Source of the DNA: Malachius bipustulatus
Lineage: Eukaryota; Arthropoda; Insecta; Coleoptera; Melyridae
DNA: 64,000 bases
Reading direction: 5' to 3'
Assembly (NCBI GenBank): GCA_910589415.1
Contig: OU342638.1
Location: 11,014,014-11,078,013 of the forward strand
Positions 36,162 to 57,032 of this stretch are shown one piece after another. A program made the translations under genes and the position numbers. Every line of letters begins with the position of its first letter. The stretch's first letter is position 1. The notes beneath the pieces were generated by a model. The model was not told the origin of the DNA and did no database searches. It worked only from the letters and a program-made list of their open reading frames with translations.

Positions 36162-37530
36162 GGCGAAAACCGCCTCGTGTGTCTTTACTCTAAGTCACCA
36201 GAAGCTGAAACAATTGATAGGAGCCTTGCCCATCCCATCGACGTTCGTGAGAATGCTCAGAGGTGCAATAGGACATTGGAACCTCAACATCCTAGGGTCA
36301 AAAGAAAATGTCCAAGTAAGACGAGGAGTGTACCAGGGAGACTCGTTGAGCCCGTTCCTTTTAATTGTGGCCACAGCAGGGATGATAGACGCCATTAATA
36401 AAGATGCCAAATTAAACAAATTCTCCCAAGGCAGACATAATATAATAATTGCATACATGGACGACATCAAATGCCACGCTCCCAATAGGAAAACATTAGA
36501 GAGGATTTCGTTCATAATTCAAGAGTTCTCTAGACAATTGGGACAATTGGGATATTTTTATGAATTAATTGGGACTCCGGCTGAACGAGGAGAAATGTGG
36601 CTACTACAACACGGAGCAGGAAGAAGAAATCGGCGACGACTGGATACCCCCTGCAGTCTGAAGTGGCTACAAATATCTAAGCATCGTTCAGCTGGACAAA
36701 GATGTCAAGGAAAACTATGACATCCTTAGAGAAAAATTAATTGGGAGAACAAAGGCATATTAAAGTCCCGCCTCACCACAAACCAGAAGGCACAAGTTTT
36801 CAACTGGTCTGTCATCCCAGCAGCCACATACGTCCTTGGCTGCATTCAACCGGCCAAGCAAAAATTCCGGGGCACCCTCGTTAAAGTCCGAGAACTTGAC
36901 CTCGAAATAAGGAAAATCGTGATCGAAGAAAAGATCAAAACGAGGCCCATGTCCAATCAGCGCGTCTACTCCCACAAGAACTGCGAGGATTGGGGTTCCG
37001 TAGCATCGAGGTCGAAACAGAAGTCCAAATAGTGCGAAAATACACATATACGTTATGGCCCACCCTGAACTAGATTACGCGAGGGAATGCTACGAGAAAC
37101 TAACAAAAGCCGGAATCAGAAACTCCAATCACAGAATTTGAACAAGTCAGGTCCAGATACAACCTGCCAGACCTACCACCAACTGACCACAACACACCGA
37201 GGGACCTCATAAAAATTATCAAAACCAGAGACGTGGAGTGGAGAAAGAAAGAATGGGCGAAAGCCATGGCCTACCCCAAGCTAATCATCCAACATGAGGA
37301 CATCATCAGCTTCCCAGCAACAAGAAACATATTTATGAACCCTACGAAGTTCTCACTGATCAACGCAGCAGCCGAAGAACAACTTTACCAGTTGAGAGCC
37401 GATTTAACCCCAGCAGACAACACCTGCCGGAGAGGATGTGCAGCAGCAGAGACCGACTACCACGTAGCCACATCATACGGACCAACCAATTACAACAACA
37501 GACATGACCAGGTCGTATACTGACTGCTGC
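36162..37530 (+). pseudogene. R2-like ORF: RT palm (YMDD), thumb and C-terminal Cys/His motif
   Basis: SHQKLKQLIGALPIPSTFVR is followed by RRGVYQGDSLSPFLLIVATA (motif B) and IIIAYMDDIKCHAPNRKTLE (motif C, YMDD at 36454-36465). After 36560 the frame shifts. Scattered coding continues to CRRGCAAAETDYHVATSYGP and NRHDQVV, similar to the Cys/His segment before the restriction-like endonuclease of R2-group elements. The endonuclease itself is truncated. Confidence 0.68.
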
Positions 37531-38901: not shown

Positions 38902-39310
38902 TGTTGGGGACTGGATATCTTTTATTTTAAATTTAATTATTTTCGCGCAAAAACGCATATTGCTGTGTGCACAAACCCGCCCCACTCCCTGGTCAAGCAA
39001 TACAAGAAGATACGCGGGCGAGTGAAGAGAAACGACCAGAAACCGGTGATACGGCCCATTCAGGCTCCATTCTGAACAAGTTGTTTAATTAAAGTGCTTT
39101 TCTCGAAAATTTGTGAGATTAGTGATCCTGCTTCCCGAAAACAATCGAACAACCTTTGAGAGCTCTCAACGACGGGACCAACAACGGCAAAAGGTGAGTG
39201 CCTCTTCAATGTGCGTTCGTTTTTAGGTATACAGCATAATTTAACACAATTTTACAATTTTTCAAATTAAATCAAATACAGTCCACTATAACCAACGTTT
39301 GTAGACAACA
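38902..39310 (+). repeat. BEL 5' LTR
   Basis: TGTTGGGGACTGG...GTAGACAACA, the TG...CA type. It includes a strong donor AAAGGTGAGT near 39190. It matches 55569-55977. Confidence 0.95.
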
Positions 39311-39884
39311 TTTTTGGTCCATCGACCCGAGATTGGCACTAGCATTTTCATATTAAATCAATTTTTACAAATTAAAGAAAATTCAAAAGATTTGTGCCAT
39401 CTTTACTTTAGTCTTCATAATTTTATTTTATTTTATTGAGTTATTATCAATTAGTCTGTCTTCGACTTATCAGTCAGTCTTGTAGTGGAGAACGATCCAG
39501 TGCGCAATAATCTCCTACCACCACCCAACATAGACGTATGCCCGTGGGGGGGATCACCAGGACAGTGTAAAATCTGAAATTATTCAAAATCAACTGCTTG
39601 ACCGCTCGTCTGCTAGCGCATTCAATTATCACAGTTTATTAACTAAATAATATTTCTAAAATAATAAGAATCTTGTTTAGGTACATTTAGGTATACCTAC
39701 CTACCTACTACTTTACAGTGTTTATTTCTCGAATCTTTATCATTTTTAAAGCCTTGAACAGGTAGCTATACGAAACGATAAGCAAGTTATAGTAGGTACC
39801 TAATTAATTTATTTATTACAGTTATTATAACATTTTATTCCTTTAATTTTTATCTCTCTCAAAAATCATTTAGCAGGTACGAAT
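39311..39884 (+). other. BEL primer site and leader
   Basis: TTTTTGGTCCATCGACCCGA follows the LTR at once, in the position of the primer binding site. I do not assign the tRNA. The rest is an AT-rich leader to the gag ATG at 39885. Confidence 0.6.
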
Positions 39885-40716
39885 ATGCCTAATCCTAATG
39901 AGGAGACAATTGCCAAGCTTGCGCTTAAACGCAAGATACCATTAACTAGATTAAAAGAAATTTACGAATACAGTGTAAATCAAACAGCTGATGAATTTTA
40001 CAAACATAATTTTTTAGCTAGAGCTGGTTTTGTCGACGTAATTTATGATGAATTTCAAGCCCTTCATAACGAAATTATTTCTTTAGTCGAAAATGACCTT
40101 GAATTTACAAATCAAGACAAAGCTAGGGCCGCTGCCGATAAATATGTTTACGCTATAAAATCTAAAAAATATGAAATGTCATTGGATACAGTAGTATCGA
40201 CGGGAACTGTGAATGATCCTAATAGGTCGTCCGTTTCTGGAGTTAAACTTCCAAAAATTAACATACCAACATTCGACGGTAACATAAAACTATGGCCAGC
40301 ATTTTTCGACTTGTACAACAGCCTTATTCATGAGAACAAAAGCCTAGCAAATGTACAAAAATTTCATTACCTTATGACGTCCTTAAAAGACGATCCTTTT
40401 AATTTGATAAAAGCCATTCCTATGACGGAAGATAATTATAAAATTGCATATGACGCACTAGTGACTAGATATCAAAACAAGCGTTTTTTAGCCACTACTT
40501 ATTTTAACGAGATATACACTGCTCCACCTCTTCAAAGATCTTCATCGAAAGATCTTCGTCATTTATTGGACATATTTTCAGAAAATCTGGCCGCGCTAAA
40601 AGTCTTGAAATTCAATACAGAGTCGTGGGATTTTTTAGTTTTTAATATGTTATTGCAGAAGTTAGATCACAAAACTCGCACCGAGTTTGAAATTGAAAAT
40701 AGCACCACAGAGATGC
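39885..40716 (+). CDS. gag-pol: BEL/Pao gag-pol, N-terminal (gag) part
   Basis: From ATG 39885: a helical Pao-type gag with the hallmark LPKINIPTFDGNIKLWPAFF, then FHYLMTSLKDDPFNLIKAIP and YDALVTRYQNKRFLATTYF, and further on FNTESWDFLVFNMLLQKLD. Coding runs to 40716, where the Gypsy LTR begins inside the codon series ending STTEM. It resumes after the second ATGC copy at 50987. It forms the particle and carries the polyprotein's downstream enzymes. Confidence 0.92.
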
Positions 40717-42336
40717 TGTAACGAAGTCCGGAAATCCGGCCTCCGTTTTTGTCTTAGTATCAGGGGTTGTGCCAGAGATTCCCAGTTATTTACGTTTTTC
40801 ATTGTCTTTTGTTATTTTTAAATTAATTAAATCAATCAAATCATGAAGCAAAGTCGAGTCCCGGTTAGTTTCCCAATATTTAAATTTATTATTAATATAC
40901 CTACCTACTTGGTTTTTTATACATAAGCCGTAAAAATAACATTTTTAAATCGTCGAATTCATACACCGAAGCTGAAGACTCCAATCGCCGAGGAGATAAC
41001 GCTACGCGATAACGGCCGCAATCGCAGGTAAATTGATTAATCCAAGAGAAAAACAATGTTTATCGCTAGCGTGGCTTCGATTCTTTTAGAAATTTAATAA
41101 AAATTTTTAGATTACGACCGCGGTAGGGATACGGGCATATAAGGCCGTGACGGAAAATAATCTCTCTCTCTGCTCTTCTGAATTCCGTTCAACTTAGTAC
41201 TGTCCCCGAAGTGTTTTGAAAATTGTTGATTCCGACCCGTTCCGGGAATAGTGACCGGTGTTAGTAATTGTGAGTACCTACGCAACCGTTTTAGCAAAGC
41301 CGCGACCGTCAACAGAGTTTTCCCGCAAAATAATAAGGTAGGTACCATCAAATATTGAGTCGAATTTAATCGTGCCCGGTTGTCGTGATTCCATTTATTC
41401 CCGTCCCTCACCGAGATTAGCGACGTACCCGATAGATTAGGCTCATTAGGTGCCAGCAACCCTGTCGTAGCGTAGAGAATTATTTGGCCCTTACTAGGAG
41501 TGCACTAGGCGGTGTGTGTACCTACGGACGCGTGATACCTGACTTTCCATGCGGTGTATGGCCCGGCGAGTCAGGGGTTAACGCCGAAGTAGTTACGCGG
41601 CCATATAGGGATTCACCCCGAGGCGTAGGTGTCTTTCCATGCGGTGTTAAGCCCGGCCGGATGCCGCACCTCAGGAGTGTCTCCGTGCGAAACTGTGTAT
41701 CTCTACAAAATTATCGTCTTCAGCAACTATTAGCAGGGTTACACCGCACCATACCTCTCGTTACATTTTTATCCCCGCGCACGGCCGAAATACTCCGCCG
41801 TCCGTCGTATTGTTAAATTTTTTTTGCGAACAAGAACCGTTGCCCGTACATTTTATTTTATTTAACCCGTATTATATTATTTTACCGACCAGTCGACTCG
41901 CTCAGATCGACCGCCGAACTTGCAATAAAATTAGTTTAATAAGGGGTACAAATAAAGCTTGTTTTCATTTATCTGTGAGTTTTATTTTGTGTGTGTATTG
42001 TTACCAATTACAACCGCCTTCTCGCCCACATCTTCGCTCCGTGAATTGCCCAGCGCTCGTGGCTCCGTGCCTAAAGACCACGTGGCCACGCACGATTTTA
42101 TTTTATTGATTTTTGCGTCCAACCAACCGACCCCTGGGCTAATTCCGTCTCCAGTGAGCTACCTTAGGGACAAGGGCACCACAACGGTGTCAATTGTGTG
42201 AACAAGTTCGACAGGGAATTCAGCGAGAGATTCCCCGGGGGAGTAAACCCTTCCAAAAATCTGGCGCCCGAGACATCCGAAGGTGAGTACCGTCAAACCA
42301 CGAAACCGGATCCTCAGAACGCGAACAATCGTCACA
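40717..42336 (+). repeat. 5' LTR of the kinase-bearing Gypsy
   Basis: Unusually long at 1.62 kb. TGTAACGAAGTCC...AATCGTCACA. A TATA-like CATATAAGG lies at 41136-41144. Two copies of CTTTCCATGCGGTGT (about 41541 and 41632) are 91 bp apart. A poly(A)-signal-like AATAAAGC is near 41950. The U5 end holds TGGCGCCCGAG (42262) and a strong donor AAG|GTGAGT. A 110-codon frame at 41484-41816 covers the duplicated words (FPCGVWPG/FPCGVKPG) but is not clearly a gene. Confidence 0.95.
42283..42288 (+). promoter_or_regulatory. Splice donor in U5
   Basis: CCGAAG|GTGAGTACC is a near-perfect donor, upstream of the primer site and gag. It would serve to make spliced mRNAs for the genes after pol. The copy in the 3' LTR is at 50929. 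Confidence 0.5.
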
Positions 42337-42343
42337 TAATTTT

Positions 42344-42362
42344 TGGCGCCCGAGCAGGGACC
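42344..42362 (+). promoter_or_regulatory. Primer binding site, Lys-type
   Basis: TGGCGCCCGAGCAGGGACC, seven bases after the LTR. It differs at one base from the tRNA-Lys3 site used by lentiviruses, TGGCGCCCGAACAGGGAC, so lysine tRNA is the likely primer. Confidence 0.8.
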
Positions 42363-42457
42363 TGATAGACGCTTCGTCACCGAACCGAATTTTTTTTTGC
42401 CGCCTCTTTCATCACCGAGCGTAGTCGTCCACCCTCCGTCCGTTTTGTTCAGCCAAC

Positions 42458-43843
42458 ATGTCGAAGGTGGAAGGAACCGTTTCCGAAGAAGGATCAGGGG
42501 CGTGCGGACCCTCCGGGCAGTCGGCGGACAAACTCAACAACTTCTTTGATAACTTGGTCCATACGGAGGAAGCGCGTACATCCTGGATATATAGGTTGAA
42601 GAAGGATGAGCTGGACGCTGAGTTGAATAAACTGGGGGTACCATGTCCGGGAACCGTAGAGGAGAAACGTAAGGCATTAGCTGGCAAGATAAGATCCCTC
42701 TCTAGGTCACCGTCCAACGCGATGGTCCCGACCAATCAAACCGGGACCCAAGGGCCTTCGATCGGTGGTGAAGCCATCGCGACTACGCAGGCCGCACCCT
42801 CGGTGCAGAACACGATGACCGCGATGCCCCCAGCGACGCACACATCGAGCGGAGCTGCAGCAAACCCGACGCAGCCCCGCCTGACCGCACCCTCCTTCGC
42901 GAACCCACCGGCGTTCTCGACACCCGGCCCGACATATTATGCGCCCCCTCAATATGTCCTCACAACGGGCCTGCCGGCTTACCGACCGACCGAACCGATA
43001 GGCCCGCCCAACGTAGCCGCATGGAACCTGCGATACGACGGCCGAACCGACGCCACCGACTTCTTAGAGCGTCTGGAAGAGCTCCGGGAAATATACGGGG
43101 TGAGTGAGGAACGAATGCTCCGCACGATGCCATTACTGTTGGAGGGGGAATGCTTGGCGTGGTACCGGAACAACTCCTGTAATATGACAACGTGGCCGAG
43201 TTTCGTACTATCGTTTCGTAACTACTTCTTCAAGAATGACTACTCCTTCGAGCTAGAAGCCGAGATTAGCCGTCGTGTACAGGGTCCGAATGAGAATGTA
43301 TTACAGTACATCACGGCCATGCAGACCTTGTTCAGGCGTCATGGTCAAATAGCTCCGCACCGCCAGCTGGACTGGATAAATCGCAACCTGCGCCCCGAAA
43401 TCAAGCAAATGTTGTGGGGCCGGCGATACGAAGACGTAGAAACGCTGATGGAAGATGCGAAATCGGCGCAGGACGTGCTGAACGAGTTGAGGGGCGCTCA
43501 CAGACTTCCTCAAGCAGAAACCGGAACACACGCATTTCACACCCCCGCCTACGCCAAAGGCAGTGACACGCGCCGAGACAGATGGCAACCGCGCGCCTCA
43601 GTCCGACCGAACCCCCAGCCGCCCATACCGAATGCGGACGGCGATACAGCGCCCCGAAAATCGGTTCGGTTCTCGCCGCCGGAGAGCCCCCGAATCATGT
43701 GCTGGAGGTGTGGGGAGACCGGACACTTCCGTAACCAATGTACAGGTCGACCCAAAATCTTCTGTTCCCGGTGTAATAAAGCCGGCGTTATGTCGCGAGA
43801 CTGTGACTGCGGCCATTCGGGAAACGAGATGAGGGGCGGGTAG
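42458..43843 (+). CDS. gag: Gag with SAP-like motif, capsid and two zinc knuckles
   Basis: 461 residues from ATG 42458. Residues about 45-80 look like a SAP motif (LKKDELDAELNKLGVPCPGT). A Pro/Ala/Thr-rich linker (about 85-185) precedes a capsid domain (about 188-350: WNLRYDGRTDATDFLERLEE, ECLAWYRNN, FELEAEISRRVQG). Residues 415-450 hold CWRCGETGHFRNQC (C-x2-C-x4-H-x4-C) and the unusual FCSRCNKAGVMSRDCDC. It packages the genomic RNA. The last codons overlap the pol frame and contain the slippery site. Confidence 0.93.
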   Translation: MSKVEGTVSEEGSGACGPSGQSADKLNNFFDNLVHTEEARTSWIYRLKKDELDAELNKLGVPCPGTVEEKRKALAGKIRSLSRSPSNAMVPTNQTGTQGPSIGGEAIATTQAAPSVQNTMTAMPPATHTSSGAAANPTQPRLTAPSFANPPAFSTPGPTYYAPPQYVLTTGLPAYRPTEPIGPPNVAAWNLRYDGRTDATDFLERLEELREIYGVSEERMLRTMPLLLEGECLAWYRNNSCNMTTWPSFVLSFRNYFFKNDYSFELEAEISRRVQGPNENVLQYITAMQTLFRRHGQIAPHRQLDWINRNLRPEIKQMLWGRRYEDVETLMEDAKSAQDVLNELRGAHRLPQAETGTHAFHTPAYAKGSDTRRDRWQPRASVRPNPQPPIPNADGDTAPRKSVRFSPPESPRIMCWRCGETGHFRNQCTGRPKIFCSRCNKAGVMSRDCDCGHSGNEMRGG

Positions 43844-43865
43844 ACACGCCGGCCGTACCCGCCCC
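43807..43865 (+). promoter_or_regulatory. -1 programmed ribosomal frameshift signal, gag to pol
   Basis: In the gag frame the bases 43819-43825 read G GGA AAC, a canonical X-XXY-YYZ slippery heptamer. After a 7-nt spacer (43826-43832), GGGGCGGGTA (43833-43842) pairs perfectly with TACCCGCCCC (43856-43865) across a 13-nt loop. The pol frame is open from 43807, just after a TGA at 43804, so it overlaps gag by 37 nt. Gag is in frame 2 and pol in frame 1, which is the -1 direction. Confidence 0.88.
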
Positions 43866-46800
43866 CACCGAACATTCACCGTCCGCATCAACCCTCGATC
43901 TCGATACTCGTCCCTTCCTACGTGTGAACATCGCAGGGGAAACGTTCCACGCACTGGTGGACACAGGCGCGACACGCACATTCATCGGACCCAAAGCAGC
44001 AACTCTCTGCCGTCGAGAAGGCGTTCCAGTAATTCGGCTGCAAGGGACGACGGCTCGTGTAGCGAGCGGAGAGTACGTCCCGGTCCTAGAAACATATTTG
44101 GTCAACATCGACGTTGAACAAGACCAGCTGAGGGCCGCCTGCTTAGTTTTACCGTCCTTACCGGTGGACATAGTGTTGGGGATGGACTTTTTGGGTACCG
44201 ACGATTTTGCGATCGCCACGGGAACGCAAAGCATCCGGATTCGAGGTAAAACGTACCACCTGAGTGTCCCGTCCGAACACAAGGTCGAGGAAAGAGTGAT
44301 GATCGAGCCAGAGGGGAGGAAGCGCCTCCCGAACCCCGACCGCAGCTGCCGTCCGAAAAATGAACGGGGGTCGGGACGAGAATGTGAATGCGCAACAGTC
44401 ACGGGGCCGAGTACCGTCCCTTCCTCACCCGAGAACGAAACGAGCGCCAGCTTACCGACTGATGAGGCCACCGCCCCCGCGCCTCACGACCACTTGACAC
44501 CGGAACAGCGCGGGCGGTTGGACGCATTCTTGAAGCGCGAGCTATCAGCGTTCGCCGCTGTTAAAGGGACTACCGACGTCGCATGCCACCGAATTAAGTT
44601 GAAACCAGGGGGCCCGATCAAACAACGACACCGCCCAATGAATCCGAAGTTGTTGGAAGTGGTAAATTCGGAGGTAGATCGCATGCTGGAGGAAGGCGTG
44701 ATTGAACCATCGAGCAGTCCGTGGAGTTCACCGGTGGTCATAGTGCGGAAGAAAGACGGGACCCCAAGGTTCTGCATTGATTTTCGGAAGGTCAATGAGG
44801 TTTCTGAAAAGGACGCGTACCCCTTGCCGTTTATTTCCGCCATTCTCGACAAGCTGCGCGAAGCCCGATACATCTCCAGTCTGGACCTTCGGCAGGGGTA
44901 CTGGCAAATTCCCTTGGCACCTGACAGTAGGCCGGTCACCGCTTTCGCCGTTCCGGGGCGTGGGCTGTTCCAGTTCCGCGTCATGGCTTTCGGCTTGCAC
45001 TCGGCGGGGGCCACTTTTCAAAGATGCCTGGACCAGATTTTGGGCCCTGAGACCGAACCCTTTGCGTTCGCGTACCTGGACGATATAATTGTGTTGGGCC
45101 GCACGTTCGAGGAACACTTGGCCAACCTGGAGGAAGTTTTCCGCCGGCTCAAGAAGGCCAATCTCGTGCTAAATCCAGATAAGTGCGAATTTTGCGCGAG
45201 TTCGCTGAAATATTTGGGCCACGTTGTCACACCCGACGGCATCGCGACCGACCCGGATAAAATCAAGTGTATCCGAGAGGTGCCGCCCCCTCAGACCGTC
45301 CGACAGCTGCGCAGATTTTTGGGAATGGCGGGGTGGTACCGTCGTTTTATTCCTAACTACGCCCGGTTGACGTGTCCGCTCACGAGCTTACTTAAAAAAT
45401 CCCGGCGCTGGCATTGGGGAGCCGAACAACAATCCGCTTTCGAGACACTGAGGAATAGTCTTACCGAGACCCCCGTCCTGACGTGTCCCGATTTCAACCG
45501 ACCGTTCACGTTGCAGACCGACGCGTCTGACGTCGGGGTCGGTGCCGCGTTGACGCAGCAAGGCGACGATGGTGAGCGGGTGATTGCGTACGCCAGTCGC
45601 ACTTTGAGCAACGCCGAGAAGAATTATACCGTAGCCGAAAAGGAGTGTCTGGCAATTGTGTGGGGCATCCAGAAAATGCGACCGTACCTGGAGGGCTACC
45701 GTTTCACCGTTATCACAGACCACCAGGCGTTGGAATACCTACGCTCGGCGAAATCACCTGCCGGCCGTATCGCCAGATGGACCTTGCACTTGCAGTCCTT
45801 TGACTTCGAAGTGGTCTACCGCAAGGGGTCGTCCAACAAGGTGGCAGATTTCCTTTCCCGCTCGGCCACCGAAGCGCCGTCGGCCGATGACGAAATCTGC
45901 GCGGCCCGCACCGCCCGACAAGACCGGGGCGCCGACACATGGTACCGCAGAAAGTTCGAAGGGGTACAGAATACCCCGGAGGCTTTCCCCGACTATCGCA
46001 TCGTAGACGGCCGACTTCACCGACGGATTACTGATTTCAGCCGGCCCTTCGAAGCGGGAACAGACGCGGAGTGGAAGATATGCGTGCCGCCGGATATGAG
46101 ACACCGCATCTTCGAGGAAAACCACGATGCGCCTACGGCCGGACACCTCGGGGTGGCGAAAACGTGCGCGCGCCTGTCCGCCAAGTATTTTTGGCCGGCA
46201 ATGTTCAGGGAAGCCGCGAGGTATGTCAGAGGGTGTCAGCACTGCCAACAGTTCAAGCCGTTTCAACGTAAACCGCCGGGTCTGATGCGACCAACCGTCG
46301 CGAACGAACCCTGGGAAACCGTCTCCATAGATCTGGTAGGCCCGTTGCCCCGCACCGCTAAGGGCAATAATTACGCCGTAGTTCTCCAGGATAAGTTCAC
46401 GAGATGGATGGAATGCCGTCCCATCCGCTCAGCGACTTCCGCCCCGATAACGCGCATGATCCTGGAGTCCGTAATCACGAAGTTCGGGTGCCCGAAAACC
46501 CTCATCTCCGACAACGGCCGCCAGTTCACGAGCAAGAGTTTCGAGGAGTTCCTGGAAAGCTGGGGAATCGGTCACCGTCTGACACCCGTGTATTCCCCCC
46601 AATGTAACCCGGTGGAGCGTCAAAACCGTACCCTGAAGACCATGCTCGCACAGTTCTGCGGCGCGGACCATAAGAAGTGGGACCAGCGAATCGCCGAGTT
46701 GTCGATGGCTTATAACACGTCACGCAACGAGACAACCGGATTTACGCCGGCGTTCTTGAACATGGGGAGGGAACTCCACGTTCCCAGTTCAGCCTTCCCG

Positions 46801-47193
46801 GTCACGGGAGACGCGACCGAAGACCCTTCCGACACCGAAATCGAACCACGCACCCGCCGTTTACGCGAATTACGCGAGCTGTACGAGCTGGTGCGGGCCC
46901 GGGTCAACCAAGCGAGCAATCAGCAGAAACATTACTACGACCTACGGCGTCGTGACTGGAGGTGCCGGGTAGGAGACCAAGTAATGAGGGCGGAACACCA
47001 TCTGTCCTCGGGGTTGAAAGGATTTGCCGCGAAGTTGGCGCCAAAGTATTCAGGCCCGTACACCGTGACAAAAGTAATTTCCCCCGTCATGTACGACTTG
47101 AAAGGGGAGACGGGTCGACGTCTCCGACGGATCCACGTAAAAGATCTGAAACCGTATGTCGCTAATCCGCCTTTCCCCACCGTCCGACCTTGA
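43807..47193 (+). CDS. pol: Pol: protease, RT, RNase H, integrase
   Basis: Made as a Gag-Pol fusion by -1 frameshift; the first Met-like start (GTG 43924) is not needed. Domains: retropepsin VDTGATRTFIG (about 43957) with IVLGMDFL; RT with VVIVRKKDGTPRFCIDFRKV, YWQIPLAPDSR and YLDD (45073-45084); RNase H at TDASDVGVGAALTQQ with ITDHQALEYL; integrase with H-x-H...GCQHCQQF and DDE blocks SIDLVGPL, SDNGRQFTS and NPVERQNRT. The C-terminus has a GPY/F-type module (KYSGPYTVTKVISPVMYDLK). There are no stops. Pol ends at TGA 47191-47193. Confidence 0.95.
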   Translation: MRPFGKRDEGRVDTPAVPAPTEHSPSASTLDLDTRPFLRVNIAGETFHALVDTGATRTFIGPKAATLCRREGVPVIRLQGTTARVASGEYVPVLETYLVNIDVEQDQLRAACLVLPSLPVDIVLGMDFLGTDDFAIATGTQSIRIRGKTYHLSVPSEHKVEERVMIEPEGRKRLPNPDRSCRPKNERGSGRECECATVTGPSTVPSSPENETSASLPTDEATAPAPHDHLTPEQRGRLDAFLKRELSAFAAVKGTTDVACHRIKLKPGGPIKQRHRPMNPKLLEVVNSEVDRMLEEGVIEPSSSPWSSPVVIVRKKDGTPRFCIDFRKVNEVSEKDAYPLPFISAILDKLREARYISSLDLRQGYWQIPLAPDSRPVTAFAVPGRGLFQFRVMAFGLHSAGATFQRCLDQILGPETEPFAFAYLDDIIVLGRTFEEHLANLEEVFRRLKKANLVLNPDKCEFCASSLKYLGHVVTPDGIATDPDKIKCIREVPPPQTVRQLRRFLGMAGWYRRFIPNYARLTCPLTSLLKKSRRWHWGAEQQSAFETLRNSLTETPVLTCPDFNRPFTLQTDASDVGVGAALTQQGDDGERVIAYASRTLSNAEKNYTVAEKECLAIVWGIQKMRPYLEGYRFTVITDHQALEYLRSAKSPAGRIARWTLHLQSFDFEVVYRKGSSNKVADFLSRSATEAPSADDEICAARTARQDRGADTWYRRKFEGVQNTPEAFPDYRIVDGRLHRRITDFSRPFEAGTDAEWKICVPPDMRHRIFEENHDAPTAGHLGVAKTCARLSAKYFWPAMFREAARYVRGCQHCQQFKPFQRKPPGLMRPTVANEPWETVSIDLVGPLPRTAKGNNYAVVLQDKFTRWMECRPIRSATSAPITRMILESVITKFGCPKTLISDNGRQFTSKSFEEFLESWGIGHRLTPVYSPQCNPVERQNRTLKTMLAQFCGADHKKWDQRIAELSMAYNTSRNETTGFTPAFLNMGRELHVPSSAFPVTGDATEDPSDTEIEPRTRRLRELRELYELVRARVNQASNQQKHYYDLRRRDWRCRVGDQVMRAEHHLSSGLKGFAAKLAPKYSGPYTVTKVISPVMYDLKGETGRRLRRIHVKDLKPYVANPPFPTVRP

Positions 47194-47270
47194 TGCCTTC
47201 CCGTGTCCGTCCAGCCGACCGGCGTTCAGCACCGCCATATTAACCCGTATACTCTTAGGACCGCTGCGAG

Positions 47271-48377
47271 ATGTCAGGCCAGGGACCGGTGCCGGAGGGC
47301 CAGGAGTGGACAACCGACCAGCTCCTGGAGGAGTTCGTGGTGGGTCGTTTCCTCGGTGAAGGGGGCTTCGGCTGCGTGCGTCAGTGCCGCTTGATCGCGC
47401 AGGCCCGCGACTGCGCGGTCAAGATGATGCGGTTGGAGCCGGAGGCCCAGGAGATGGCCTATGTGGAGGCCCTCTGCGGGCTGCGATTACACAGCCCCAA
47501 CATCGTCGAGCTGCTGTGTGCCCGAAAGGTCGGGGACATTTACTACCTCGCATTCGAGCTGGCTGAAGGGGACCTGCAACATCGAGTGGAGGTCCACGGC
47601 GCGACTGATAACGCCACCCTCACGACTCTGGGGCTCCAACTGATGCGGGCCCTGGAGTACTGCCACAACTTGGGGTTCATCCATAGAGATGTGAAGCCGC
47701 CGAACGTCCTGCTGTGGGGGTGGGGTCCGCAGATGACCGTGAAGTTGGGGGATTTTGGGCTGGCCGTAGAATGCACCTTGGGCTCCAAGGGCCGGATGGG
47801 TCGGGCGGGCACCGAAGGGTTCATGGCGCCGGAGTTGGACCAGGATAGGGAATACGACCACCGGGTAGACGTGTGGTCGTGCGGCGCCACGGTTCTGTAC
47901 GTCGCTTCCGCCGGTGAGATCATCGCCGGTGACTCCTCTCCCCCATATTGGACCGGTTGGCCCGCCGACGCCGACGAACATGGCGGCGAAGCGGCACTGG
48001 CCGCTCACGTGGCGCGCTGGTTATCCGCAGACCTCGACGTCCGACCGTCCGCGCAGGCCGCAGCCGCAACATTAATGGCGTTAGCGGCGCCCGTCCCCTC
48101 GCCAATGCAATCGGGTTGCCAGGACGACGCCTCCCAATGCCCTCCTGCCAGTGAGAAGAACCGCCGGGCGCCGATACCAACGATAAGCCGCAGCGTCCAA
48201 GCCTTGTGGGACGCCGATGTACGCTCACCCGAGCTGACAGCCAGGCTCCGATTGCTTCGTCCCCAGGGGGCCCGCACGGACCGGCGGCTGAAAGTGCAGG
48301 TCCAGACCGACTCGGGTCGCCTTATCCGGGTCAGGATACCGGCCGACTCCACTCCGCGCCGTACCCACCGTCCGTAA
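47271..48377 (+). CDS. Serine/threonine protein kinase carried by the retrotransposon
   Basis: 368 residues, 77 nt after the pol stop and in another frame. The kinase domain (about 22-277) has every key element: Gly loop GEGGFGCV (29-36), ATP-binding Lys51 in CAVK, HRDVKPPN (138-145, catalytic Asp140), DFG at 161-163, T181 and MAPE to 188, and DVWSCG (200-205). HRD-x-K-x-x-N marks a Ser/Thr kinase. The tail (280-368) is Pro/Arg-rich without a known domain. The alpha-C Glu is probably Glu66. The start MSGQG resembles the MS starts of gag and the next gene. The substrate is unknown; Gag or host factors are candidates. Ty3/Gypsy elements do not normally encode a kinase. Confidence 0.93.
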   Translation: MSGQGPVPEGQEWTTDQLLEEFVVGRFLGEGGFGCVRQCRLIAQARDCAVKMMRLEPEAQEMAYVEALCGLRLHSPNIVELLCARKVGDIYYLAFELAEGDLQHRVEVHGATDNATLTTLGLQLMRALEYCHNLGFIHRDVKPPNVLLWGWGPQMTVKLGDFGLAVECTLGSKGRMGRAGTEGFMAPELDQDREYDHRVDVWSCGATVLYVASAGEIIAGDSSPPYWTGWPADADEHGGEAALAAHVARWLSADLDVRPSAQAAAATLMALAAPVPSPMQSGCQDDASQCPPASEKNRRAPIPTISRSVQALWDADVRSPELTARLRLLRPQGARTDRRLKVQVQTDSGRLIRVRIPADSTPRRTHRP

Positions 48378-48444
48378 AGGTCCGCAGTTTTGCCAGACGG
48401 GCGCCGGCACTCCCGTGATTAATATTGCTTTTATGTCGTTGCAG

Positions 48445-49038
48445 ATGTCGGACGACGAAATGGAACTCGATTACGAGTGGAGCGACGGCTCTTCGCAGGC
48501 CTACAGCTACAGGTGGACCGACACTCCGTCCCCAGAGCCGGGCCTGCCGTGCTTCCGGGTAGCCGAGGTCGCCAAGGACCAGTCCTGCTCCGCGTCACCG
48601 TTGGAGGATGCGGGTCCAACCAGCACCGATACCGCCGTCTCGACGGGATTTCCCCAGTTTCTACCGGTTAGCGGCAGCGCTCTCTGTTGGCGATGCGGGG
48701 AATCCGGACATCTCCGGGCGGGGTGCCATGGGCCGCGGAGGTTATTTTGTTCGCGGTGCGGACTAATGGGTACCCTGTCCCGTGATTGCCGTTGTAGGGG
48801 CACCGTCGGCGTCACGAAGAGGCACGCCGACGAGCCGCGAAGGCGCACCAGGAATGAACCAGCACCCCCGTCCGCCCCGCGCAGACCCTTTACGGCGGAC
48901 AAGGCTATACAATGCACGATCCTGCCGAGCGTCGCCGGAAGTGGTGGTAAAGCGATTCGATCGCGGATGAGGAGACAGCGCGTCCGTGCGACGTCGAACC
49001 CAAAACGACGTCATGTTGAGGGAAGTACACGCGAGTGA
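48445..49038 (+). CDS. Accessory protein with gag-like zinc knuckles
   Basis: 197 residues from ATG 48445, chosen because TTTTATGTCGTTGCAG directly before it is a good splice acceptor; the frame is open slightly further up (48415). There is an acidic start (MSDDEMELDYEWSDG), then CWRCGESGHLRAGC and FCSRCGLMGTLSRDCRC, then an Arg-rich C-terminus. Both knuckles match the gag pair CWRCGETGHFRNQC and FCSRCNKAGVMSRDCDC nearly residue for residue, so the gene arose by duplicating the gag nucleocapsid. RNA binding is expected. It could act on RNA export or packaging, but that is a guess. Confidence 0.85.
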   Translation: MSDDEMELDYEWSDGSSQAYSYRWTDTPSPEPGLPCFRVAEVAKDQSCSASPLEDAGPTSTDTAVSTGFPQFLPVSGSALCWRCGESGHLRAGCHGPRRLFCSRCGLMGTLSRDCRCRGTVGVTKRHADEPRRRTRNEPAPPSAPRRPFTADKAIQCTILPSVAGSGGKAIRSRMRRQRVRATSNPKRRHVEGSTRE

Positions 49039-49361
49039 GGTCCACAGAAGTTAATTTCTTTTTTTTTACAGGGTGAGTTCATTTTTCTTTTTATCCGAGT
49101 TTGTATTATATGAGATTATTTAATGTTCTTTTTGAAGTGATAGGGCGAACTAATTTTTTGTGTGTATATAAATTTATTAGGGGGATTATTTCGTGTACAT
49201 ATTCAATTCATTGGATTAGATTTTAAGGTAGGGTTTCTTTTATGTTCTTTTTGATTGATATTCTGTTTATTTTTGTAAGGTTTGAGCGAGCCGTCCGACC
49301 CGGTAGTCAGGTAAGTTAGAAAAAAAAACTTTTTGTTTTTTTTTATCCGACGAGGGGGGGA
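49039..49361 (+). other. 3' untranslated region with polypurine tract
   Basis: T-rich, non-coding. It has a perfect donor-like CAG|GTAAGT near 49309-49316 and a GGTGAGTTC at 49071, odd so close to the 3' end. GAGGGGGGGA (49352-49361) abuts the 3' LTR as polypurine tract. Confidence 0.75.
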
Positions 49362-50982
49362 TGTAACGAAGTCCGGAAATCCGGCCTCCGTTTTTGTCTT
49401 AGTATCAGGGGTTGTGCCAGAGATTCCCAGTTATTTACGTTTTTCATTGTCTTTTGTTATTTTTAAATTAATTAAATCAATCAAATCATGAAGCAAAGTC
49501 GAGTCCCGGTTAGTTTCCCAATATTTAAATTTATTATTAATATACCTACCTACTTGGTTTTTTATACATAAGCCGTAAAAATAACATTTTTAAATCGTCG
49601 AATTCATACACCGAAGCTGAAGACTCCAATCGCCGAGGAGATAACGCTACGCGATAACGGCCGCAATCGCAGGTAAATTGATTAATCCAAGAGAAAAACA
49701 ATGTTTATCGCTAGCGTGGCTTCGATTCTTTTAGAAATTTAATAAAAATTTTTAGATTACGACCGCGGTAGGGATACGGGCATATAAGGCCGTGACGGAA
49801 AATAATCTCTCTCTCTGCTCTTCTGAATTCCGTTCAACTTAGTACTGTCCCCGAAGTGTTTTGAAAATTGTTGATTCCGACCCGTTCCGGGAATAGTGAC
49901 CGGTGTTAGTAATTGTGAGTACCTACGCAACCGTTTTAGCAAAGCCGCGACCGTCAACAGAGTTTTCCCGCAAAATAATAAGGTAGGTACCATCAAATAT
50001 TGAGTCGAATTTAATCGTGCCCGGTTGTCGTGATTCCATTTATTCCCGTCCCTCACCGAGATTAGCGACGTACCCGATAGATTAGGCTCATTAGGTGCCA
50101 GCAACCCTGTCGTAGCGTAGAGAATTATTTGGCCCTTACTAGGAGTGCACTAGGCGGTGTGTGTACCTACGGACGCGTGATACCTGACTTTCCATGCGGT
50201 GTATGGCCCGGCGAGTCAGGGGTTAACGCCGAAGTAGTTACGCGGCCATATAGGGATTCACCCCGAGGCGTAGGTGTCTTTCCATGCGGTGTTAAGCCCG
50301 GCCGGATGCCGCACCTCAGGAGTGTCTCCGTGCGAAACTGTGTATCTCTACAAAATTATCGTCTTCAGCAACTATTAGCAGGGTTACACCGCACCATACC
50401 TCTCGTTACATTTTTATCCCCGCGCACGGCCGAAATACTCCGCCGTCCGTCGTATTGTTAAATTTTTTTTTGCGAACAAGAACCGTTGCCCGTACATTTT
50501 ATTTTATTTAACCCGTATTATATTATTTTACCGACCAGTCGACTCGCTCAGATCGACCGCCGAACTTGCAATAAAATTAGTTTAATAAGGGGTACAAATA
50601 AAGCTTGTTTTCATTTATCTGTGAGTTTTATTTTGTGTGTGTATTGTTACCAATTACAACCGCCTTCTCGCCCACATCTTCGCTCCGTGAATTGCCCAGC
50701 GCTCGTGGCTCCGTGCCTAAAGACCACGTGGCCACGCACGATTTTATTTTATTGATTTTTGCGTCCAACCAACCGACCCCTGGGCTAATTCCGTCTCCAG
50801 TGAGCTACCTTAGGGACAAGGGCACCACAACGGTGTCAATTGTGTGAACAAGTTCGACAGGGAATTCAGCGAGAGATTCCCCGGGGGAGTAAACCCTTCC
50901 AAAAATCTGGCGCCCGAGACATCCGAAGGTGAGTACCGTCAAACCACGAAACCGGATCCTCAGAACGCGAACAATCGTCACA
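49362..50982 (+). repeat. 3' LTR of the kinase-bearing Gypsy
   Basis: The same as 40717-42336 apart from one extra T in the run near 50463. The target duplication ATGC follows at 50983-50986. Confidence 0.95.
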
Positions 50983-50986
50983 ATGC

Positions 50987-53900
50987 CTACGTACAAAATA
51001 CTTACCACATTTTTGAGCAACAAGTGCAAGGCCTTAGAATCTGTCCAGTGCATGATGCCGAGCTCACCAATCAACAAAATTAAGCGTTCTGGTTTTTCAG
51101 AAAACTTAGAAAACCGGACGTTTTCGAATAATAAGCAACGATCCATGCCTTCAGCATTTCTAAACTCGGTTGACAATCAACAACCCTCAACGTCAAATAA
51201 CCGTCCTCAGAATTATAATTCAAAATGTTTACTTTGTCCGTCTTCACATGCACTTCATAGATGTCAAATATTTTTAGCAAAAACTCCACAAGACAGACTA
51301 GCTTTTGTAAGACAGCACTCTTTATGTGGCAATTGTTTGCGTTCGTCACATTCAGTGCGCCAGTGTCCATCTTCTACAACATGTAGAATTTGTCAATATT
51401 CGCATCACACTTTATTACATTTGAATTTAAATAAAAGGGAGTTCGCTCCACACGCTTCCAATTCCCTTCAGACAAATACGGCACTACAATTAAATACGGC
51501 AAGCAGCACGCCTCTACCAAATCCTCTACCTAATTCAAATGATGATCCAGCCTCATCTCTTCTTTCTACTTCTTTTAGCCCTACTTTCAGGAAACATTCG
51601 ACGGTTCTGCTATCAACAGCAGAAGTTGAAATTCGGGATGTATGGGGAAGGTTCCAAAAAGTACGTGTTCTTTTCGACACCGCCAGCATGGCGAATTTCA
51701 TTTCCGAACGCTGCGTGAATCGTTTAGGTTTGCCTCGTCGAAATTCTTCAATACCGATTGAAGGGATAAATAATTTGATCTCCACTTCTAACCGTGGCAG
51801 TACTCAATGTTTCATTAAACCGCGTGGTAAAACAGATCCTACTTTTACCTTTGAAGCAATCATTTTGCCTAGAATTTGTTCAGATCAGCCAAGAGTCTAC
51901 CTTAATTCACAAAATTGGTCTCACATTGAAAACTTACCCTTAGCTGATGACAAATTTCAGACTCCTGGTCCAGTAGATATTTTGCTCAGTGCGGAATTAG
52001 TTCCTTTCATGCTGGGTTCAGGACGCATTTTTGGTAAAGTTGGGGAACCGGCAGCCATAGAAACCGTTTTCGGTTGGATTCTTCAGGGCCGCACGGAATG
52101 CTCATCGCAAACTACCTCGCTTCTTAGTTGTGCCACTGTACTGGAGCCTCAAATATTAGATATTACTCTTCAAAAATTTTGGGAAATTGAACACCCGCCT
52201 ACAACGAAAGCGATCTTATCTCAAGATGATATTAAATGTGAAACATTATACAAAGACTCAGTCTCTCGGGATATCTCTGGAAGATTTGTGGTTCCACTTC
52301 CTTTCAGGCAAAATGAACTTGATTTCGGAGATTCGTACAACCAAGCCCTACGGCGATTACTATCCCTTGAAGCTCGTCTTTACAAAAATCCTGATCTGCA
52401 CATCGCTTATTCAGATTTCTTTAAAGAATATTTGCAAAAGAATTACATTTCCGAAGTTCCACGTTCCGAGTATAGAGCTTCATCGGCCTTTTATCTCCCT
52501 CACCACTGTGTCTTAAAGCCTGACAGCGTCTCCACCAAAATTCGAGTCGTTTTTAACGCCGGTGCAAGGGGATCGAAGGGCCTAAGCCTCAACGATACGC
52601 TCTTTTCAGGGCCCAAACTTCAACATGATTTGCCTACCATTCTATTACAATTCCGAACTTTTCCTATTGTATTTATATGCGACATAAGACAAATGTACTG
52701 TCAAATACTAATTAAACCTGAACACCGTAAATATCAGAGATTTCTTTGGCGTTTCTCTACCACGGAGGAAGTTAAAGAATATGAACTTAAGACTGTGACT
52801 TTTGGAGTCTCTTCCGCTCCTTATCTTGCCCTCAGAACTCTCAAAGAACTAGCAGTTGTCGAACAGGATAATCACCCTTTAGCTTCAGAGGTTTTACAAA
52901 ATTCAGTCTATATGGATGATTGTGTAACCGGGGCAGATTCTGTAGGGGCAGCACTTCATCTTCAGTCAGAACTAATCGCTCTCTTGAAAAAAGGCGGTTT
53001 CGAGTTACGGAAATGGGCGAGCAATCATCCCGCGATTCTCTCCGCAGTCCCTTCCGAATACTCTCAAATGCCTCTAAGTTTTGACACAGAACTCCCTAGT
53101 TTTATAAAAGTTCTTGGACTTCAATGGAATCCTAACTCGGATACTTTCTCGTATTCTGTCACTCCCATTGAATCGGACTGCACGAAACGTAGCGTGCTAT
53201 CTCAAATAGCACGGATCTTCGATCCCTTAGGCTTCTTAGCTCCCATGATTTTTCTTGCAAAGCACATGTTACAACAGCTTTGGCGTTCAAAGACTGGTTG
53301 GGATGACCCACCTCCAGATATTATTGTACAGGAATGGAATCGTTTTAGACTGGAACTTCCAGAAGTAGCCAAAGTTCAACTACCAAGGCTGATAGTTTCA
53401 GAGTTGATCTCGCGTTTAGAGATTCACGGGTTCTGTGACGCCAGTACCAAGGGTTATGGGGCCGTGATCTACTTCCGTGTGATTACGTCTAGCGGACAAA
53501 TCAAATTGATCCTGATCACGGGAAAATCTCGAGTCGCTCCTCTTAAGGTTATATCCTTACCTCGACTAGAACTTTGTGCTGCCTATCTTCTGTCGGACTT
53601 AATTACTTTTGTCAAAAAAGCCTATTCTCAAAAATTTACATTCGATACTGTCTATGCGTGGTCCGACTCACAAGTAACTTTAGCTTGGCTCTCAGCCTCT
53701 CCACACCGCTGGAAAACGTTCATAGCTAACCGAGTCGCTCATATTCAGGAAATAGTTCCTCCATTGTCATGGAAGTATGTTCCCACAAAAGACAACCCTG
53801 CTGACTGTGTTTCGAGAGGTCTCAGTCCTAGACCTTTGATAGAACACAAACTCTGGTGGCAAGGTCCAGATTTCCTTTATAAGCAACCTACAGACTGGCC

Positions 53901-55443
53901 GGAGCAGCCATCGATTCTATTGGAAAAATTCCCTGAAGCTTCGCAAGAAGAAAAACCTTTAGCTTTGCACGCTGCAGTGGAAATCTCTTCAGGAGTTATT
54001 CCGAATTTACTCGCCAAATTCTCATCCCTACGGAAAATTCAGCGAATTCTAGCTTATGTCTTACGTCTTTGCCCGCGCCTCCGCAGACGGAAGAAGCCCG
54101 ATACTCCTGCTCCGACCTACGCCGAAAATCATCGAGCTTTACAGCTAATTATAAGGCAGGTACAAGCAGAGTGCTTCTCAGATATTGTGGATTCCTGTCA
54201 GAAAAAGAGTTCGCTTCCTAAACCTTTCAGAAAATTAGCACCTTTCATTGACGAAGCAGGTATTCTCAGGGTGGGTGGAAGGTTAAGACACTCATCCCTT
54301 TCATTGGATGCTAAACATCCCGTTTTATTACCAAAAAAGCATAAATTCACGTTTCTTATCATAGAACAAGTCCACAAGGAAAACTTTCATCCTGGTCTTA
54401 AATCTCTACACAACTTGATCTTGCAAAACTTTTGGATAATTTCCCCACGTAGCTCGATTTACAGTTGTCTTTCTAAATGCCATAAGTGTTTTAAATGTCG
54501 ACCTCAATCGTATTTCCCCGTTATGGCTGACCTACCTAGATTCAGAATCAATCAAGTCAAGGCATTTTCACAAGTGTCCCTAGATTATGCTGGGCCATTC
54601 ACAATCACAATGGGAAAACATCGAGGTGCGAAGACGTCGAAATCCTATATTTGTCTTTTCGTATGCTGTGCTACGAAAGCCCTCCATCTAGAATTATCAT
54701 CGGATCTGACCTCCGACGCATTTCTCGCGAGTTTTCGTCGGTTCATCTCTCGTCGAGGCAGAGTTTCTGATATTTATTCTGATCAAGGCACTAACTTCAA
54801 AGGCGCTTACAATCAACTTCAAATTTTTTCTAATGCTGCAGCTGTTGATCTGGGAATCAATTGGCACTTCAACCCGCCAGGGGCGCCACATTTCAATGGT
54901 TTGAGCGAAGCTGGAGTGAAGTCTGTCAAGACCCATCTTTATCGCGTCGTCGGTCAACAACTCATGACCTATGAAGAATTTTATACTTTGCTTACGCAAA
55001 TTGAGTCTCTTTTAAACTCACGTCCTCTTTCTTCCATCAGTGAAGATCCTAACGATCTAAGTCCTTTAACACCAGGACATTTCCTTACCCTAGAACCACT
55101 TACCAGTTTCCCAGAACCTAATCTTGAACATTTAACCCTAAATAGGCTAAGCCGCTGGCAGCTTTTGCAGCGAATGCACGCCAGTTTTTGGAAGCGTTGG
55201 AGTCAAGAATACTTGCACACCCTGCAACAGCGGGTCAAGTGGACCACGCCCTATCCCAATATCAAACTTGATATGCTTGTCCTCATCAAAGATGAGCTAA
55301 AGCCTCCACTCGAGTGGGCTCTCGGACGTGTGGTCAAGTTGCATTCAGGAGAAGACGGGGTAGTGCGCGTCGTCTCATTAAAAACCCAAAAAGAGATTTT
55401 ACAACGTCCTGTGGTAAAAATTTGTCCACTGCCGGGACAATAA
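50987..55443 (+). CDS. gag-pol: BEL/Pao gag-pol, C-terminal part: zinc knuckle, protease, RT, RNase H, integrase
   Basis: In order: CLLCPSSHALHRCQIF and CGNCLRSSHSVRQC (zinc-binding), protease at LFDTASMANFISERC, RT with FICDIRQMYCQILIKP and YMDD (52909-52920), RNase H at GFCDASTKGYGAVIYF, and integrase with HPGLKSLHNLI...CHKCFKC and catalytic blocks SLDYAGPF, YSDQGTNFKG and GLSEAGVKSVK. The last block is a C-terminal DUF5641-like segment (LVLIKDELKPPLEWALGRVV). There are no stops. The open frame extends back into the Gypsy LTR, but that part is not BEL. Confidence 0.95.
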
Positions 55444-55568
55444 TTTCTTTTTTTTTGTAATTTTAATTTTAGGTAATTTTCGAATTTTTTTTGTTAATTT
55501 TTTCATGCTTCTCACGTGCATAATATGTGTATAGTTGGGAAAAACCAAGGCGTTTTTGGTGGGTGGAA
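55444..55568 (+). other. BEL 3' untranslated region and polypurine tract
   Basis: T-rich after the stop, then GGTGGGTGGAA right before the 3' LTR, fitting a plus-strand primer. Confidence 0.7.
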
Positions 55569-55977
55569 TGTTGGGGACTGGATATCTTTTATTTTAAATT
55601 TAATTATTTTCGCGCAAAAACGCATATTGCTGTGTGCACAAACCCGCCCCACTCCCTGGTCAAGCAATACAAGAAGATACGCGGGCGAGTGAAGAGAAAC
55701 GACCAGAAACCGGTGATACGGCCCATTCAGGCTCCATTCTGAACAAGTTGTTTAATTAAAGTGCTTTTCTCGAAAATTTGTGAGATTAGTGATCCTGCTT
55801 CCCGAAAACAATCGAACAACCTTTGAGAGCTCTCAACGACGGGACCAACAACGGCAAAAGGTGAGTGCCTCTTCAATGTGCGTTCGTTTTTAGGTATACA
55901 GCATAATTTAACACAATTTTACAATTTTTCAAATTAAATCAAATACAGTCCACTATAACCAACGTTTGTAGACAACA
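55569..55977 (+). repeat. BEL 3' LTR
   Basis: Matches 38902-39310 without a difference that I could find; the target duplication ATGGG follows. Confidence 0.95.
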
Positions 55978-55982
55978 ATGGG

Positions 55983-56910
55983 TAAAGAATTAGCAAATAA
56001 AATAAAACAACCACAGAATAAAAAAAGGAGCTTGCCTCCTATGAACTCCAAAACTATTTTTCTACATTTAACTAATAAAATTGAAGTATCAGAAATAATA
56101 GAAAAATTGAAAAATAAAAAAAGAGGAGTAGATGGGGTGAATGCCAAGGTAATAAAAACGTCATCAAGATATATAGCTGAGCCTCTATCCCACATGATAA
56201 ATTTATGTTTCATCAAAGGAGAATGGCCTGTTAAACTAAAATGTGCTGAAATTGTTCCCATACATAAATCTAAAGATAAACACCACTCAGAAAATTATAG
56301 GCCTATTTCTTTGATTTCTAATTTTGCAAAAATAGTGGAAAAGATTTTACATAATAGACTCCTGAAATTTTTTAATAGATGCAATATTATTTCAAACAAA
56401 CAATATGGGTTTTTAAAGAATAAAGGAACAAAAGATGCCTTGAATTTTATTGTAGATAAAATACTTACTGAATTAGATGAAAGCAGACCTATATCCATCA
56501 CATTCTTAGATTTAGCCAGAGCTTTTGATACAGTGGACCACGTAATACTTCTGCAAAAGTTATATAATTATGGGATTAGGGGTAACGCTTATGATTTGAT
56601 ATCAAGTTACCTAACAGGATGGTTGCAGAAAGTCAGAGTCAATGATACTACTAGCAATTTTGTTGAAGTGAATATGGGTGTTCCACAGGGAACTGTCCTG
56701 GGACCGCTCCTATTTGTCCTTTATATAAATGATTTACTTGTGGACTCGCCTGAAGGACAGATTGTGTCTTATGCAGATGACACTGCTTTATTAACAACTG
56801 GAAAAAATTGGGTAGATGTGGAAGAAAAAATGAACCTTCATTTAAATGAAATCTCTGACTGGCTAGCTTTAAATAAATTATCACTAAATATTGATAAAAC
56901 TGTATACAGG
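55983..56910 (+). pseudogene. LINE reverse transcriptase, the BEL target
   Basis: Continues the codons ending at 38901. RT motifs: GVDGVNAKVIKTSS, NYRPISLISNFAKIVEKIL, ISITFLDLARAFDTVDH (motif A), GVPQGTVLGPLLFVLYINDL (motif B), IVSYADDTALL (motif C) and LNKLSLNIDKT. It is a Jockey/CR1-type ORF2 core, open from 55978 until a foldback begins near 56907. The endonuclease and the C-terminus are missing here. Confidence 0.85.
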
Positions 56911-57032
56911 GTTATTCACGGTATACGCCACGGAAGATTATGGCCGTGTCTCTGGATTTTAGGATCTTTTTATTTTTGGAGTGGATAGAGACCCGGCAGA
57001 GGTACGTTTTAAAATTATATTCATAATGTACA
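56907..57032. other. Fragment starting like a foldback end
   Basis: TATACAGGGTTATTCACGG follows the LINE break directly and looks like the TA-CAGGG end of a MITE, but its inverted partner is not in the vicinity. Confidence 0.4.

Follow-up and report, generated by a model that had tools for sequence, protein, structure and literature searches.

In Gypsy/errantivirus elements, env is the third gene and is located between pol and the 3' LTR. Acutely transforming retroviruses contain captured kinases, which are recent and host-like, and these viruses are usually replication-defective. To our knowledge, a stable signaling enzyme is not known from any lineage of LTR retrotransposons. An earlier note on the DNA studied here held that the extra genes at the site after pol are only env-like or antisense ORFs, which is too narrow, as the LTR retrotransposons of bdelloid rotifers possess an enzymatic ORF3 that encodes a DEDDy exonuclease or a GDSL esterase, according to the available part of PMC5408684. 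In addition, Ty3/Gypsy elements with DNA methyltransferase, exonuclease, and chromodomain accessory domains are described in the available part of PMC6338049. The word "kinase" is absent from the main text of PMC5408684 and has 0 occurrences in the available part of PMC6338049. No precedent for a kinase-bearing LTR retrotransposon was found in titles and abstracts of largely non-subscription literature or among the protein matches listed.

The window (the whole 64-kb stretch of DNA analyzed here) contains a young Ty3/Gypsy element, designated W, whose two LTRs align with a single 1-bp homopolymer indel and 0 mismatches (Table 1). Both gag and pol are open. The order of protease, reverse transcriptase (RT), RNase H, and integrase in pol, together with a CCHC gag, is that of Ty3/Gypsy elements (Metaviridae), and the LTR pair, primer-binding site (PBS), polypurine tract, and short target-site duplication are all present. 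pol is in the -1 frame relative to gag, and the GGGAAAC heptamer lies at an equal distance from the gag end in all six elements compared (W, L009, L015, L019, L023, and L026), of which L009 is a near copy of W. The PBS string, which we take to be of the tRNA-Lys type, is also present upstream of gag in L015, L019, L023, and L026; no tRNA gene was found within the 64-kb window. W is inserted in a BEL/Pao element, which it splits and whose LTRs (409 bp) are identical, so that the two form a nested pair of young insertions. ORF pieces resembling LINE (non-LTR) RT or endonuclease were also seen by eye at 2263 to 5076 (-), 34586 to 36720 (+), 55978 to 56988 (+), and 59017 to 59820 (-).

Table 1. 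Features of the kinase-bearing element W and of the element harboring it (window positions)
Feature	Position	Strand	Basis or details
BEL/Pao element harboring W	38902..55977	+	LTRs 38902-39310 and 55569-55977 identical; TSD ATGGG
Target-site duplication, left	40713..40716	.	ATGC
5' LTR, 1620 bp	40717..42336	+	LTR-LTR alignment
Candidate splice donor AAG/GTGAGT, near 3' end of 5' LTR	42283..42288	+	Sequence
Primer-binding site TGGCGCCCGAGCAGGGACC	42344..42362	+	Sequence
gag, 461 aa, Retrotrans_gag and zf-CCHC	42458..43843	+	ORF list, Pfam
pol open frame, PR-RT-RNase H-H2C2-rve	43807..47193	+	ORF list and Pfam; listed ORF start 43924
-1 frameshift heptamer GGGAAAC, gag frame, followed by GC-rich stem	43819..43825	+	Sequence
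Candidate splice acceptor AG, 12 nt 5' of kinase ATG	47257..47258	+	Inferred
Ser/Thr protein kinase, 368 aa, C-terminal tail	47271..48377	+	ORF list, Pfam, sequence and fold matches
Candidate splice acceptor ttgcttttatgtcgttgcag, immediately 5' of ORF4 ATG	48443..48444	+	Inferred
ORF4, gag-like CCHC/CxxC zinc knuckle	48445..49038	+	ORF list, alignment with gag
Polypurine tract 5' of 3' LTR	49353..49361	+	Sequence
3' LTR, 1621 bp	49362..50982	+	LTR-LTR alignment
Target-site duplication, right	50983..50986	.	ATGC

Between the end of pol and the start of the 3' LTR, W carries a kinase ORF that matches Pfam Pkinase at 2.8e-40. The earlier note had placed a catalytically competent-looking kinase at this site of an intact-looking Gypsy element, and the coordinates, the open gag and pol, the Pfam match, and the ATGC duplication flanking the LTRs all agree with it, as do the motifs that it named (Lys51, HRD at residues 138 to 140, DFG at 161 to 163, and APE at 186 to 188). 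The Gly loop, the VAIK Lys, the αC Glu, HRD, DFG, and APE are kept in all 14 kinases compared, a set that excludes L017, whose kinase has HRN instead of HRD; the alignment slips at Arg258. In L014 and L015, Ser replaces the first Gly of the Gly loop. Judged by these residues, the W protein is predicted to be an active eukaryotic-type protein kinase. The insertion site of the extra gene is that of Gypsy/errantivirus elements, whereas W has a kinase and a zinc-knuckle protein instead of env, and no envelope domain is among its Pfam hits. Like the acutely transforming retroviruses, W is an LTR element with a kinase; however, its kinase is diverged, selected, and accompanied by open gag and pol.

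The closest known kinases, by sequence as well as by predicted fold, are CaMKII-like. CaMKII and related CAMK proteins give the best sequence match (97.6 bits) and the best fold match (Foldseek E value of 2e-20), whereas their identity to the W kinase is low (~22 to 28%), the W kinase has its own C-terminal tail, and the CaMKII association domain (PF08332) is not among the Pfam hits of W. The fold predicted from a 30-row alignment has a core with pLDDT values mostly of 85 to 97, a weak loop at residues 221 to 240, and a tail of low confidence. Herpesvirus US3 kinases share the fold (best US3 row, E value of 5e-18) and are likewise element-borne, but their identity is ~22% and nothing indicates descent; two v-erbB proteins were included in the same comparison. 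When residues 205 to 368 were used as the query, none of the 3840 candidates scored reached an E value of 1, and no annotated relative sharing the tail was present among the matches listed (the best 120 of 212 and the best 120 of 795). Each protein search scored the 7995 candidates with the most shared words, and many generic kinases matched; with this scope, the absence of relatives among the matches listed is weak evidence. IMG/VR scans with pol and the kinase as queries gave no relatives, and 28 phage records gave generic matches only (<60% identity). A bacterial donor of the kinase is unsupported: in a tree of 36 rows (6 element kinases and 30 comparison sequences hand-picked from 217 proteins, several without an organism name, and with the bacterial labels assigned by us), the 21 bacterial-labeled rows are split from the 6 element rows at 100/99. 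The grouping of the six element kinases, with L029 included, is weak (79/83).

When all 544 Mb of the genome (52 contigs) were searched in six frames, 129 kinase rows were obtained, a good number of them fragments of single genes. Twenty-four rows span at least 320 residues, 20 of them stop-free and 4 with a stop, and consist of W, C16:4737307 (outside the read-out), 20 loci that were read out, and L029 and L030. At all 20 other high-scoring loci read out, pol lies upstream and ORF4 downstream in the same direction as the kinase, including the degraded L012, L013, L016, L027, and L028; the pol of L013 is a 51-aa piece in the kinase direction. L029 and L030 represent a deeper lineage (pol 57% and kinase 27% identical) with the same order, in which a short ORF displaying the zinc-knuckle pattern follows the kinase. 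A kinase is located within 1.5 kb downstream in 30 of the 42 listed pol copies, including the lineage with 57% identical pol; these copies are the main rows of 55 from the best candidates scored, whose remaining 13 rows are short fragments from the same loci, and the pairing used 43 of the 129 kinase rows. In L009, L010, L020, L023, and L026, the compared LTR stretches are 100% identical, which marks them as young, and the kinase and ORF4 are open, with the first kinase ATG of L026 being internal.

These copies bear out the proposal of the earlier note that the kinase moves with the element. The outcomes by which that note would be refuted, a kinase missing from every further copy or a chimeric W copy, do not hold, as kinases 99.7 to 100% identical to that of W are present on C16, C17, and C6. 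A host gene captured recently by this copy alone, or an assembly chimera, with the kinase carried along by chance, would accord with the youth of W, whose LTRs are one indel apart, and with the lack of an annotated relative of the kinase tail among the matches listed. However, this reading is extremely improbable in view of the pol-kinase-ORF4 arrangement shared by all 20 other loci read out, the divergence among element copies, which extends down to 25 to 27% identity for the kinase and 57% for pol, and the purifying selection described below. When the L029 kinase tail was tested for common descent with the others, the numbers of shuffles out of 2000 that score as high are 0 for W, 0 for L019, 6 for L028, 15 for L023, and 117 for L015, so that the L029/L030 tail resembles the W, L019, L023, and L028 tails beyond shuffles, and the L015 tail not clearly. 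Derivation of the tail by duplication of the integrase C terminus was rejected, because 565 to 1802 of 2000 shuffles score equally high in all five lineages. Longer open frames (436 to 532 aa), in which the kinase domain and tail are separate matches, occur at C6:1445734, C16:7234644, C1:6578199, and C14:38969088, and by these matches the four loci appear to be further kinase variants.

The kinase dN/dS ratio (Nei-Gojobori) is 0.11 to 0.22 in six pairs (L014/L015, L019/L021, L018/L023, L023/L024, L023/L025, and L019/L023), with dS values of 0.08 to 0.86 and P values of 2e-6 to 6e-29 each when site counts are rounded and a one-sided Fisher test is applied; the pairs are not independent, and L023 is in four of them. 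Ratios calculated from the dN and dS values are 0.25 for L029/L030, 0.21 for L018/L019, and 0.26 to 0.49 for four distant pairs in which dS is saturated (>1.3); W/L029 has no value because dS is saturated, and the W and L010 kinases are nearly identical. Left out of the pair set were L009 and L020, whose proteins are identical to those of W and L019, as well as L022, L017, the stop-bearing copies, and L026. A seventh pair, W/L011, has a ratio of 0.54 (P of 0.13) from 21 changes and is too close to be informative. In two pairs, the tail has a ratio of 0.38 to 0.43 versus 0.16 for the domain, and in a third pair, the ratios are 0.20 and 0.18. There is no sign of positive selection in the pairs compared. 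These comparisons show purifying selection on the kinase, and the constraint first supposed from the W copy alone is consistent with the six low ratios and with the catalytic residues kept in 14 of 14 rows.

Part of the DNA that separates the kinase from the 3' LTR is taken up by ORF4, which was overlooked when the DNA was first read. Its zinc-knuckle region is 47% identical to that of gag, and it has no Pfam match at an E value of 0.01; by this alignment, the zinc knuckle of ORF4 is a copy of the one in gag. Four pairs have ORF4 dN/dS ratios of 0.19, 0.20, 0.21, and 0.25, three close pairs have ratios of 0.42, 0.66, and 0.79, and two saturated pairs give no value. Like the rotifer elements with ORF3, the W lineage has an enzyme gene after pol, within the LTRs and under selection, in addition to gag and pol, and modules are shared between retroelements in both; the rotifer enzymes are different, however, and no paired zinc-knuckle gene is noted in the available part of PMC5408684. 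The Ty3/Gypsy elements in the available part of PMC6338049 resemble W in having an extra enzymatic function and differ in having no kinase.

The kinase and ORF4 differ from the rest of the element in their divergence between families. Between L019 and L023, dS is 0.23 in gag and pol, 0.86 in the kinase, and 1.13 in ORF4. In 250-bp windows, the identity of this pair is 86 to 97% in pol, with the minimum in the final 500 bp, 62 to 81% in the kinase and ORF4, 94 to 98% over the 500 bp past the cassette, and 56 to 81% further into the LTR; because of this second drop, exchange is not confined to the cassette. Among the 11 elements with a sufficiently long RT match, those of one kinase type (L017, L019, and L020) and the other (L018, L023, and L024) share 96 to 98% identity in RT versus 71 to 73% in the kinase. 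The simplest reading of these sequences is that the kinase and ORF4 have been swapped as a cassette by recombination, for which template switching between copackaged RNAs would be one route. As the gag dS is 0.23 and the kinase dS is 0.86 in L019/L023, a tight kinase-Gag match is not required. L010 is almost identical to W in pol, the kinase, and ORF4, but the match in gag starts no earlier than residue 80 and has 90% identity, which may mean that gag also recombines.

Twelve of the 42 listed pol copies have no kinase nearby, and the DNA downstream of all 12 was inspected. All nine kinase-less copies with a full-length open pol share one junction, which lies ~19 nt into the kinase gene, continues with ~25 unmatched bases, and resumes just short of the 3' end of the internal region, so that the kinase and ORF4 are both gone; downstream of the junction, these copies are 90 to 99% identical to L019 and L020. 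Each of the other three, which belong to three different lineages, has a deletion of its own, with the left end between 23 nt upstream and 20 nt downstream of the kinase ATG and the right end within ORF4. pol is open over the matched stretch in L041 and L042 and contains stops in L043 (C7:1483249). In total, there are at least four separate cassette deletions. The junctions and the unmatched bases (L019-type copies and L041) look more like template switching than splicing. Because L029-type elements retain the cassette, its presence is probably ancestral and its absence derived. L042 is 79% identical to L029 at its pol end (positions 1 to 110) and 96% in its 3' part (positions 116 to 1150), and it is possibly a recombinant.

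As the nine copies show, an element lacking the cassette is able to amplify, at least where complete copies are there to help, and since cassette-minus derivatives have multiplied, possibly with such help, the kinase is not needed for reverse transcription or integration as such. For the same reason, its benefit may be small, conditional, or exerted in trans. One could regard the kinase as a passenger, useful in some old lineage and now decaying, with recurrent deletion as the main trend; the four or more deletions, an apparent loss of kinase residues 97 to 273 in a near-identical copy at C1:69988805 (judged from match coordinates), stops in some copies, and the ratio of 0.54 in W/L011 point that way. 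Young copies of several subfamilies (L009, L010, L020, L023, and L026) nevertheless keep the kinase and ORF4 open, and dN/dS is 0.11 to 0.22 in six pairs over dS values of 0.08 to 0.86, so we regard decay as improbable. The kinase looks selected yet not essential for amplification. The sequences themselves show the gene order, frames that remain intact, purifying selection, and the exchange and loss of both genes at once. It is highly probable that the kinase has long been a selected accessory gene in a Ty3/Gypsy lineage and that it forms a two-gene cassette with the zinc-knuckle ORF4. This suggests a functional set of accessory genes, for which the literature searched gave no description in such elements.

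Joint retention, exchange, and loss suggest that the two genes have a task in common, in which the kinase would phosphorylate a nucleic-acid-binding partner. Given this apparent common task and a Gag that does not follow the cassette in L019/L023, an accessory function directed at ribonucleoproteins of the element or the host is favored over an obligatory step in reverse transcription or integration, and we infer it to be the most likely role. For the target itself, an ORF4 ribonucleoprotein with host factors, through which host control of the element would be modulated, has a nearly even chance, and a cell-cycle or nuclear-entry factor is rather doubtful. If, instead, the kinase phosphorylated the element's own Gag nucleocapsid or ORF4 and thereby switched packaging, translation, or uncoating with no host target, the zinc-knuckle copy in ORF4 and its loss and exchange with the kinase would be as expected of an enzyme-substrate pair. 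This alternative is less likely, as cassette-minus copies with open pol have amplified and Gag did not follow the cassette in L019/L023 (dS of 0.23 in gag and 0.86 in the kinase). Our tentative proposal, held at somewhat less than even chance, is a viral-style accessory system in which the kinase and a nucleocapsid-derived RNA-binding partner, expressed by splicing and exchanged as a cassette, would counter or rewire host control, with the cassette-minus copies as natural knockouts or dependants. Because the genome has complete, cassette-exchanged, and cassette-minus copies of one subfamily, it can be tested here why a retrotransposon keeps a kinase, in what way retroelements acquire regulatory genes, and whether these counteract silencing by the host.

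Like retroviral env, the kinase and ORF4 would each be expressed from a spliced subgenomic RNA. A CAG after a T-rich stretch abuts the ORF4 ATG in five of eight rows (W, L015, L017, L019, and L023) and lies 2 nt from it in two more (L029 and L030), with none in L028. An acceptor-like AG is located 6 to 14 nt 5' of the kinase ATG in seven of nine rows, with none so close in L029 and L030; the rows compared for acceptors include several close relatives. The donor pattern GT(A/G)AG is present within the ≤420 nt upstream of gag in W (best at 42283) and L026, and none was found in the same interval of L015, L019, and L023. Spliced RNAs for both genes are thus predicted from sequence, with acceptors better supported than the donor.

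Two minor observations concern the leader. In L018, positions 1 to 2037 are a tandem array of ~300-bp units in place of most of gag and the leader, adjoining the gag end and pol. In W, a second PBS-like string, TGGCGCCCGAGACATCC, lies at 42262 to 42278 within the LTR end and is followed by the donor-like AAG/GTGAGT; L015 has a similar doublet, which may reflect an LTR end that shifted outward past an older PBS.
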